This document shows, one piece after another, positions 25,222 through 27,397 of a stretch of 41,536 nt of DNA (positions are counted from its first letter, which is position 1; every line of letters starts with the position of its first letter). The notes beneath the pieces are model-generated. The model did not search any database. It worked only from the letters and a program-made list of their open reading frames with translations, and was not told the origin of the DNA. The stretch lies in contig JAFAYV010000078.1 of assembly GCA_019240115.1 (NCBI GenBank), positions 1 to 41,536 on the forward strand, in the 5' to 3' direction. The position numbers and the translations under genes are program-made. This DNA comes from Solirubrobacterales bacterium. Its GTDB lineage: Bacteria > Actinomycetota > Thermoleophilia > Solirubrobacterales > Solirubrobacteraceae.

Positions 25222-25250
25222 ACCGTAGGGTCAGTCGGCGTCTGCGTCAG
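25222..25250 (-). promoter_or_regulatory. Candidate promoter of S53 peptidase (CCTACGGTA type)
   Basis: -35 CTGACG (25245-25250), 17-bp spacer, -10 TACGGT (25222-25227) within CCTACGGTA. The same nine bases, with the same spacing, occur before the Sel1 gene at 26164. The -35 overlaps the stop codon of the Sel1 gene. Confidence 0.4.
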
Positions 25251-26164
25251 GCGGGGTCGGAACGACGCAGCGCAGCGGCGCGACCGGCAGCGGCCGGATC
25301 GCCGCCTCGCTCGCCATGCTCGTATGCCTCGCGAGCCGCGTCGAGGTCGCCGCGCTGCTCGAGCAGCATCCCCAGGCGAGTCGCCGCCTGAGCGTGCCCT
25401 GCCGCCGCCGCATGGCGCCAGGCCGTCTCGGCTCCGCCTGGATACCCCCGGCTGTAGAAGAACAGTCCCAGCTCATAGATGGTGTCGCCGTCGAAGCCGC
25501 CCTCGGCGGAGGGCTGCATGCCGGCGCCGAGGTCGGACGAGGCATGGTTGATCAGCAGCCCACGCGTGAGCCTCGTGTGCGGATCCTCATCGGCGGGCGC
25601 CAGGGCGGCGGATTCCTCGGCGTGGCGATCGTTGAAGTGGGCGTCGAGGCGCGCGGGCTCGAACTCCGCGCCGGGCTCGTCCAGAGCAACGGCCTCGGGC
25701 TCCGCGCCGGGCGCGTCCAGAGCAACGGGCTCGGGCTCCGCGCCGGGCGCGTCCAGAGCAACGGGCTCGTCCAGAGCAACGGCCTCGGGCTCCGCGCCGG
25801 GCGCGTCCAGAGCAACGGGCTCGAACTCCGCGCCGGGCGCGTCCAGAGCAGCCGGCTCGAACTCCGCGCCGGGCTCGTCCAGAGCAACGGCCTCGGGCTC
25901 CGCGCCGGGCGCGTCCAGAGCAACGGGCTCGGGCTCCGCGTCAGCCGCCGGAGGCGCGCCGGCCTCCGGCGTGGCGCTGACCCATTTCACCGGAGGGGCG
26001 AGTCCGGGCTGAACCGCAGACGGCTGCCGGACAAGTGGCGGCGCGAACGCCGCATCATCCTCGCCGCCCTTGCCCTCCTGCTCCCGCGACCAGCGCAGGC
26101 CAGCGACAGTCAGCCCCACCAAGACCGCTCCGGCGCTGCCCAGGATCGAAGTCGTGAGGTTCAC
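25247..26164 (-). CDS. Membrane-anchored Sel1/TPR-like protein with 12-residue repeats
   Basis: A 305-aa protein of unknown function in three parts. A single N-terminal membrane segment (TTSILGSAGAVLVGLTVAGL) is followed by a Pro/Ala/Glu/Asp-rich stalk, and a C-terminal Sel1/TPR-like domain of about 80 residues (YELGLFFYSRGYPGGAETAW, AAAGHAQAATRLGMLLEQRG, DLDAAREAYEHGERGGDPAA). The stalk holds about seven and a half copies of a 12-residue unit such as PVALDAPGAEPE, coded by a 36-bp tandem repeat. The likely start is GTG at 26164, with a weak ribosome site. The next gene upstream codes a paralogue with the same C-terminal domain. The acidic stalk and helical-repeat head suggest a scaffold at the membrane; no function is known to me. 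Confidence 0.75.
   Translation of the reverse strand: MNLTTSILGSAGAVLVGLTVAGLRWSREQEGKGGEDDAAFAPPLVRQPSAVQPGLAPPVKWVSATPEAGAPPAADAEPEPVALDAPGAEPEAVALDEPGAEFEPAALDAPGAEFEPVALDAPGAEPEAVALDEPVALDAPGAEPEPVALDAPGAEPEAVALDEPGAEFEPARLDAHFNDRHAEESAALAPADEDPHTRLTRGLLINHASSDLGAGMQPSAEGGFDGDTIYELGLFFYSRGYPGGAETAWRHAAAAGHAQAATRLGMLLEQRGDLDAAREAYEHGERGGDPAAAGRAAALRRSDPA
25650..25940 (-). repeat. 36-bp coding minisatellite
   Basis: Seven full and one half copy (six residues) of a 36-bp unit in tandem, in frame with the Sel1 gene. Copies differ mainly at two positions that swap Pro/Phe (GAEPE or GAEFE) and Ala/Glu (LDAP or LDEP). The half unit near 25760-25780 shows an unequal event. Confidence 0.9.
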
Positions 26165-26265
26165 GGGGACGAGTGGTCGAGCGCGAGCTACCCGAGGCGC
26201 GGCCGGACCTGCTCACCCCGGCGCGGCGCCTCGACGACAGCACGGCGCTTAGGTGATAGGAGTCT

Positions 26266-26294
26266 ACCGTAGGTTCGCGAGTTCATCGGGGCAA
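26266..26294 (-). promoter_or_regulatory. Candidate promoter of Sel1 gene (CCTACGGTA type)
   Basis: -35 TTGCCC (26289-26294), 17-bp spacer, -10 TACGGT (26266-26271) in CCTACGGTA, the same nine-base word and spacing as before the S53 gene. Confidence 0.4.
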
Positions 26295-26323
26295 GCCGGC
26301 GACGCGCGCTCGGCGTCAGCGGG

Positions 26324-27397
26324 TCAGCCGCCGTTCGGCCGGCGCAGCGCGGCGCCGAGGCCGGCGGCGGCCGGATCCCCGCTCCGCTCCGCTCGATCGT
26401 AGGCCTCCCGCGCCTGGTCGAGCTCCCCCCGCTGCTCGAGCAGCATCCCGAGCCGCGTCGCCGCCTTCGCGTGCCCGGCGCCGGCGGCCTGCCGCCAGGC
26501 GGTCTCGGCGCCCTCGGGGTAGCCGCGGCTGTAGAGGAACAGGCCGAGCTGATAGGCGGTGTCGGTGTCGGGGTCGGCGTCGGCGTCGGCGTCGGCGTCG
26601 CTCGAGCCGGGGAGTGCGGCGGCGAAGTCGGGGGACGTGGTGCGGTCGAGCAGCTCGCGCGTCAGCGCCATGAGCGGATCGTCGTCCTCGGGACTGGTCG
26701 TGTTGGCCTCCTCGCGGTGGTGGGCCTCGGCGGCCTCGTCGACGACCGGCTCGGGCTCGTCATCAACCTCATCAGCTTCGGCGGCCCCCGCGAAGACGCC
26801 GGGGTGGGCATCGTCGAGGGCGTGCTTGGGCTGGCCGTTGTCGAGGGCGTGCTCGGGCCGGCCGTTGTCGAGGGCGTCGTGAGCGTCGGCGGCGCCGAGC
26901 ACCGTCGTCTCGGGCTCGTCCGGCTCGTCAGGGTCGTCGCCGGCGGCTGGCACCGCGGCGGCGGGCACCGCCGGTTGCGCGGCGGGCGCGGCGTTGGGCG
27001 CGTGCGGTTGCGCGGTGGCCGCGGCTTCGGGCGCGGCCGGTCTCGCGGCGGCCGCGGCGTCGCGGTCGCGCAGCTCGCGCAGGCCGAGCAGCGTCAGCAG
27101 CGCCAGGACCACCCCGCCGCCGATGAGGAGCGCGATGAGGTTGACCCCCGGGGTGTGAGAGGCGCGCTGCGTCGAGGAGGCCGGCGCCGAGGCCGGGCGC
27201 GCCCTTCCCGGGTGCGCCGTCCGGGCGCCCGAGCCCGTGCCGCCCCTGCGCGAGCTCGGCTTGGCGCAGCAGAGCTTCTGGTGGCCGAGCGGAAACTGCG
27301 TGGTCAGCGAGTTCTTCGGCGGGGTGGCCGCCGCCGCCCCGGTCGCGAGGCCCAGAGCGAGCAGCGCGAGGCAGACGATCAGGACGCGACGCCTCAT
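26324..27397 (-). CDS. Secreted/membrane Sel1/TPR-like protein, paralogue
   Basis: A 357-aa protein: signal peptide (RRRVLIVCLALLALGLATG then AAAA), a short exported segment with paired Cys (FPLGHQKLCC), a membrane helix (VNLIALLIGGGVVLALLTLL), then a long acidic Ala/Asp/Glu/Pro region and a C-terminal Sel1/TPR-like domain. The last domain is nearly the same as that of the gene at 25247-26164 (LGLFLYSRGYPEGAETAW, AAGAGHAKAATRLGMLLEQ), so the pair arose by duplication. The linker has three ALDNG/ALDDA-type copies and a run of Asp-Ala coded by GTCGGC repeats (26573-26600). The ATG at 27397 overlaps the L,D-transpeptidase stop (ATGA), so it belongs to the ferritin-like/transpeptidase operon. Function is unknown; a cell-envelope role is inferred from neighbours. 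Confidence 0.75.
   Translation of the reverse strand: MRRRVLIVCLALLALGLATGAAAATPPKNSLTTQFPLGHQKLCCAKPSSRRGGTGSGARTAHPGRARPASAPASSTQRASHTPGVNLIALLIGGGVVLALLTLLGLRELRDRDAAAAARPAAPEAAATAQPHAPNAAPAAQPAVPAAAVPAAGDDPDEPDEPETTVLGAADAHDALDNGRPEHALDNGQPKHALDDAHPGVFAGAAEADEVDDEPEPVVDEAAEAHHREEANTTSPEDDDPLMALTRELLDRTTSPDFAAALPGSSDADADADADPDTDTAYQLGLFLYSRGYPEGAETAWRQAAGAGHAKAATRLGMLLEQRGELDQAREAYDRAERSGDPAAAGLGAALRRPNGG

Follow-up and report, generated by a model that had tools for sequence, protein, structure and literature searches.

Two neighbouring minus-strand genes in a 41,536-nucleotide stretch of Solirubrobacterales DNA (hereafter the window) encode paralogous membrane proteins, each predicted to end in a TPR/Sel1-type head joined to its membrane helix by an acidic, repeat-containing linker, and one of the two (gene 2) overlaps the gene for an L,D-transpeptidase, YkuD, an enzyme that cross-links the cell wall. 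The reading that we favour, and to which we give an even chance of being correct, is that gene 2 is a trans-envelope adaptor coupled to YkuD, with a wall side, a transmembrane helix, an acidic linker and a cytoplasmic TPR-type head, that gene 1 is a duplicate of it without the outside part, and that the length of the linker is set by its tandem arrays.

The source genome is a draft of 4.03 Mb in 99 contigs, and the open reading frames that an earlier note on this DNA had described as two neighbouring genes are both real (Table 1). Read along the minus strand, two genes for ferritin-like proteins are followed by that for YkuD, by gene 2 and then, after a gap of 159 bp, by gene 1. The start of gene 2 overlaps the stop of YkuD by four bases (ATGA); for the GTG start assigned to gene 1, no ATG, GTG or TTG occurs in the 16 in-frame codons back to the upstream stop. 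Directly downstream of gene 1 lies a gene for a kumamolisin-type protease (PF09286, PF00082; 23241-25163, minus strand), for which tblastn against 11 fetched loci found no relative.

Table 1 Features of the two-gene locus and its upstream neighbours, in positions of the window.
Feature	Position	Strand	Description and basis
Gene 1	25247..26164	-	305 aa, GTG start; paralogue of gene 2 without signal peptide or outside segment
Gene 1 head	25250..25624	-	60/75 core residues identical to gene 2
Gene 1 36-bp minisatellite	25654..25940	-	units ALDAPGAEPEPV/ALDEPGAEFEPA; TRF score up to 394
Gene 1 membrane helix	26096..26161	-	probable N-out/C-in anchor; hydropathy 1.74, borderline
Gene 2	26324..27397	-	357 aa, ATG start; signal peptide-like start, short outside segment, transmembrane helix, acidic repeat linker, TPR/SLR-type head
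Gene 2 head	26327..26719	-	degenerate repeat, two 32-residue repeats, cap helix; AF2 model, PDB matches
Gene 2 Asp-Ala 6-bp array	26557..26600	-	inside the degenerate first head repeat; TRF score 67, alignment
Gene 2 linker	26720..27079	-	acidic, predicted disordered, with 33-bp and 27-bp arrays; composition, pLDDT, TRF
Gene 2 27-bp array	26813..26877	-	ALDNG-type units; TRF score 116
Gene 2 33-bp array	26953-27062	-	TRF score 143, the top score of the gene
Gene 2 transmembrane helix	27080..27148	-	about residues 84-106; hydropathy peak 2.58, helix 84-117 in model
Gene 2 motif FPLGHQKLCC	27266..27295	-	residues 35-44, conserved outside motif; alignments and profile
Gene 2 hydrophobic start	27326..27397	-	residues 1-24, probable Sec signal peptide; hydropathy, helix 2-22 in model
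L,D-transpeptidase (YkuD)	27394..28215	-	PF03734, E 2.5e-23 (Pfam)
Ferritin_2 protein	28231..28902	-	likely operon member; PF13668, E 2.6e-39, and synteny
Second ferritin-like protein	28914..29525	-	likely operon member; tblastn to ferritin-like genes of syntenic loci

The arrangement around YkuD recurs elsewhere in the genus. YkuD has matches at E ≤ 1e-10 in 24 of the 28 genus genomes, its own included, and at the five best loci outside the source genome (G010, G022, G023, G002 and G019) ferritin-like genes lie upstream in every case, a single one being visible in G022, where the contig ends. At four of the five comparable loci, the gene directly downstream of YkuD encodes a hydrophobic start, an outside segment, a transmembrane helix, a linker and repeats, and the overlap with YkuD (ATGA or GTGA) is found both in the window and in four related genomes. 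The proposal that a TPR gene accompanies every ferritin-YkuD locus was dropped on account of G002, which has the ferritin-ferritin-YkuD order but no TPR gene in the remaining 461 bp of its contig. In the stretches fetched for five more distant YkuD loci (L080-L084), no ferritin-like and no TPR match was seen; together with G002, these loci indicate that YkuD can do without this partner in some genomes. In the window, gene 2 is probably carried on one transcript with the L,D-transpeptidase and the two ferritin-like proteins.

In the genome comparisons, for which each species was represented by one genome, neither gene 1 as a query against the 28 genus genomes nor gene 2 as a query against its own genome and 60 relatives returned, outside the window, a match longer than the repeat region. 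A genome scan with one alignment (A3) led to four loci, and a scan with another (A2) matched patterns and gave no relative. Among the best matches of a literature search there was no description of this gene family or operon.

The heads of the two proteins are identical at 74 of 116 aligned residues and at 60 of 75 in a gap-free core, and the paralogy extends to the membrane helix. To call the heads near-identical, as the earlier note did, was too strong: pS in the core is 0.51, and third codon positions agree at 57%. The dN/dS of the core is 0.14 (0.28 with the pre-head block added). Judged from these codon comparisons, the pair is an old duplication with purifying selection on the heads.

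Like TPR (PF07719, PF13432) and Sel1-like proteins, the heads are built of two-helix repeats with LGxLL and AxxAYxRA signatures. The period of TPR repeats is 34 residues and that of Sel1 repeats 36 or more, whereas the LGxLL sites of this family lie mostly 32 residues apart (residues 284 and 316 in gene 2), so that the heads depart from the TPR period as well. Pfam returned TPR models only, below the cut-off (TPR_2 at 23.7 bits for gene 2 and 18.8 for gene 1, against a curated cut-off of 27), and no Sel1 model at E ≤ 1 for either gene; some relatives, L023 among them, score 72-75 bits with TPR. The AF2 model of the whole gene 2 protein had a pLDDT of 53, not good enough for fold comparison, and the head was therefore modelled alone (pLDDT 74, and at least 90 for 56 of its 131 residues). 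Foldseek found no match to it at E ≤ 0.001 (the best was 0.006, and the top matches are TPR proteins), while the top rows of VIA-align are Sel1 chains at Z 12.5-13.7 and TPR chains at about 12, values that helical repeats commonly reach. A profile of the heads and their relatives run against the PDB placed designed consensus TPRs first (best E 5e-16) and Sel1 more weakly (E about 1e-7). The heads are, by sequence and by model, TPR/Sel1-type solenoids, and we leave the label at that level. The earlier note had spoken of a Sel1/TPR-like head and proposed structure prediction as a check: the solenoid stands, the modelled head folding as one of TPR/SLR type, and the choice within it is split between the sequence profiles, which favour TPR, and the fold comparison, which for the gene 2 model leans slightly to Sel1.

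Repeats of this kind also occur in other settings. Three genomes have, downstream of the YkuD-TPR pair and in convergent orientation to it, a second member of the repeat family (L075:9884-11308, minus strand; L076:2-883, plus strand; L077:8832-9101, minus strand). The C-terminal ends of the three are alike, and the sole complete copy, that of L075, encodes PG_binding_1 twice and has GHTNGTAAT repeats in its linker. Elsewhere in the source genome, L003/L091 (G000:C11, about 31400-33700) combines a hydrophobic start, PG_binding_1, a transmembrane helix and about 15 similar 32-residue TPR-type repeats; there it is the head, not the stalk, that forms an array (96 bp, 15.2 copies, TRF score 1755). 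At L015:722-1963 (minus strand; G002:C167), about three such repeats stand at the C-terminus of a predicted multi-helix membrane protein, perhaps a transporter or flippase, where the gene 2 match runs across one TAG and Pfam named the TPR part only. A second architecture, seen in L092 (G000:C84), L012, L021, L014, L117 and L019, has the TPR-type repeats first, then a transmembrane helix and a low-complexity tail that is probably outside.

The N-terminus of gene 2 is, from hydropathy and a modelled helix, a probable Sec signal peptide. The segment that follows it carries the motif (Y/F)P(L/I)G(P/H)Q(R/K)LCC, which is shared by four relative copies, two of them in G010, and is absent from the G019 copy. 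A profile of this outside segment, run over 232 genomes of the order with at most 32 candidates scored per genome, found the same motif carriers at E < 1e-18 (five places), the next match coming only at 5e-4. Gene 2 itself has no peptidoglycan-binding domain.

On which side of the membrane the heads lie was judged from charge and from domain order, with transmembrane helices called by a 19-residue Kyte-Doolittle window and no dedicated predictor. The sample comprised 38 distinct repeat ORFs, 24 of which have a strong transmembrane helix outside the repeat block; these proteins are related and do not amount to independent tests. In 20 of the 24, the repeat side of the helix has more Arg and Lys than the other side, with three ties (L092, L023 and L034) and one opposite case, the polytopic L015; by domain order, the bias appears in 15 of 18 proteins with the helix first and in 5 of 6 with the repeats first. 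For L017, which is among the 20, the helix counted is an Ala-rich stretch that may not be transmembrane. Among eight scanned relatives with a helix followed by TPR repeats, PG_binding_1 occurs once or twice ahead of the helix in six, and those without (L017 and L025) have open 5' ends. The charge bias and the position of PG_binding_1 across the membrane make it probable that the heads are cytoplasmic, in which case the stalk would set their distance from the inner membrane face. For the family as a whole, wall outside and TPR inside is the simplest reading of these sequences. The window genes themselves are less marked: the helix of gene 2 has four Arg/Lys on the head side against one on the other, with equal net charge, and in gene 1 the RWSR flank after the helix fits a C-in orientation, but its hydropathy of 1.74 falls below the threshold of the charge count.

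The opposite placement, in which the heads would be surface-exposed Sel1-type modules held off the outer face of the membrane, can draw on the signal peptide-like N-terminus of gene 2, on its adjoining YkuD, an enzyme acting outside, and on the several solved Sel1 proteins that rank high among the fold matches. We consider it improbable, given the second, stronger helix (2.58) after the signal peptide in gene 2, the positive-inside pattern of most relatives and the peptidoglycan-binding domains that lie across the membrane from the repeats.

Between a membrane helix and a head that would be cytoplasmic, both proteins carry an acidic linker. That of gene 1 has Asp or Glu at 36 of 154 residues; that of gene 2 has 28 Asp or Glu and 6 Lys or Arg in 120 residues and is predicted to be disordered, its pLDDT being mostly below 50 in the AF2 model. 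The 36-bp minisatellite reported earlier for one of the genes is present in gene 1, where the top TRF score of 394 was reached in none of 500 codon shuffles (maximum 75) and in none of 500 shuffles of the stalk only (maximum 98). The Asp-Ala and ALDNG repeats reported for the other gene are both found in gene 2. The score of the 27-bp ALDNG-type array was reached in 0 of 500 fresh codon shuffles, whereas the Asp-Ala array is the weakest of the arrays by this test: 11 of 500 shuffles equal its score when arrays of every period are counted, and 0 of 500 when the period is limited to at most 6. The strongest array of gene 2, with its 33-bp period, had not been named before; neither 500 codon shuffles nor 500 stalk-only shuffles reached its score (maxima 99 and 100, respectively).

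The arrays appear to be far younger than the genes that carry them, at least in gene 1. Its six full units (a decayed seventh unit and a 6-residue partial unit were excluded from the codon-position count) are 97% identical at third codon positions, with a synonymous difference in 2 of 153 same-residue codon pairs. Set against the value for the heads, this indicates that the array arose long after the gene duplication, unless its units have been homogenised, and at the level of codons it points to recent array growth. Among the 24 family proteins, nine have linker arrays, seven of them with TRF scores of at least 100, and in all seven the period is divisible by 3. A homologous pair from two species of the genus, L023 and L034, shows where length has changed: the heads are identical at 289 of 343 residues with no gap and the parts before the transmembrane helix (L023 residues 30-333) at 234 of 301 with 3 gap columns, whereas the linkers are identical at 41 of 69 with 72 gap columns, all belonging to one Asp/Ala-rich repeat block. 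The unit identities of gene 1 and the linker block of this pair thus bear out the earlier description of the stalks as repeat-built and fast-changing.

Some caution about array length is invited by the 99-contig draft, as short reads do not easily resolve arrays of about 290 bp, and repeat number or a whole array could in principle be a distortion of assembly. This seems to us very unlikely indeed: the units of gene 1 carry distinct in-frame coding variants, and in the L023/L034 pair the shorter linker is without even one unit, unlike a collapse.

The type of linker array also differs among relatives, with ADHADRADHAGLADP in L023, none in L034 and an unrelated STDTDR in L104, a third homologue. 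In the four relatives that are syntenic with gene 2, the linker is short, at 45-62 residues of which 2-7% are acidic, and no array there scores above 52. So far, the acidic stalk of the window genes would be a local innovation, seen only in this species. The same syntenic relatives, which lack an acidic linker, have more head repeats than gene 2, and its head may therefore be a reduced remnant in this species. That linker arrays come, go or are unrelated among L023, L034 and L104, and that the syntenic relatives do without an acidic array linker, also fits neutral slippage in an unconstrained tether, with gene 1 a by-product of duplication and length without function. We regard this as possible, though rather doubtful, since both window paralogues are acidic in composition, both heads look selected and the high-scoring arrays keep to periods divisible by 3, although a constraint on frame alone explains the last of these.

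Beyond layout, gene order and selection, we infer the following mechanism for the adaptor reading. The exported N-terminus of gene 2, with its FPLGxQxLCC motif, would be connected through a single membrane helix and a disordered acidic linker to a docking head in the cytoplasm, and the protein would probably tie YkuD, or the wall itself, to a putative cytoplasmic client. Gene 1, tethered to the membrane but out of contact with the wall, would offer the same head and in this way may compete for the client or pool it. The in-frame tandem arrays, which change faster in evolution than the head does, would determine how long the linker is; lengthening an acidic linker would let the head reach further and would repel other acidic proteins.

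This layout invites comparison with known envelope-spanning scaffolds. The polar organisers HubP and FimV of Vibrio, Shewanella and Pseudomonas have, in the passages of the reports cited here, a wall-contacting outside part, a single transmembrane helix, a cytoplasmic region that is acidic and, in HubP, made of imperfect repeats, and a C-terminal TPR domain; the acidic repeats of HubP vary in composition, length and number even between close species (PMC12918733, PMC8789113). Gene 2 is alike in the order of a single transmembrane helix, an acidic repetitive linker, presumably cytoplasmic, and TPR-type repeats, as judged from hydropathy, composition, arrays and model. Gene 2 and its family are unlike them in that PG_binding_1 or the short CC motif stands in place of LysM, in the 32-residue repeats, in the YkuD and ferritin-like neighbours and in the host, a member of the Actinomycetota. 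No LysM match was found for the two genes (E ≤ 1) or for 10 relatives (E ≤ 0.001), and the FimV C-terminal domain, TIGR03504, gave none in the source genome or in 9 proteins (E ≤ 0.1), a weak control in that the model matches 1 of 14 control genomes, below the cut-off; its absence among the VIA-align matches listed for the gene 2 head carries no weight. PodJ of Caulobacter differs in that its TPR and peptidoglycan-binding parts are both periplasmic, whereas the TPR head described above is predicted to be cytoplasmic. The best reading is that gene 2 resembles HubP/FimV in layout and is not a FimV member by sequence. We further propose, tentatively and with more doubt than confidence, that Solirubrobacterales possess a family of wall-anchored scaffolds with cytoplasmic 32-residue TPR-type heads, independent of HubP/FimV, in which the length of the acidic tether is tuned by gain and loss of tandem repeats and one branch forms, through its operon with an L,D-transpeptidase and with ferritin-like proteins, a module for wall remodelling. 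If this is true, the locus would offer a handle on the placement of L,D-transpeptidases in little-studied actinobacteria, the tether repeats would be the part that evolution changes, making tether length a testable design variable, and the HubP/FimV layout of wall anchor, membrane helix, acidic repeat tether and TPR dock would have arisen more than once.
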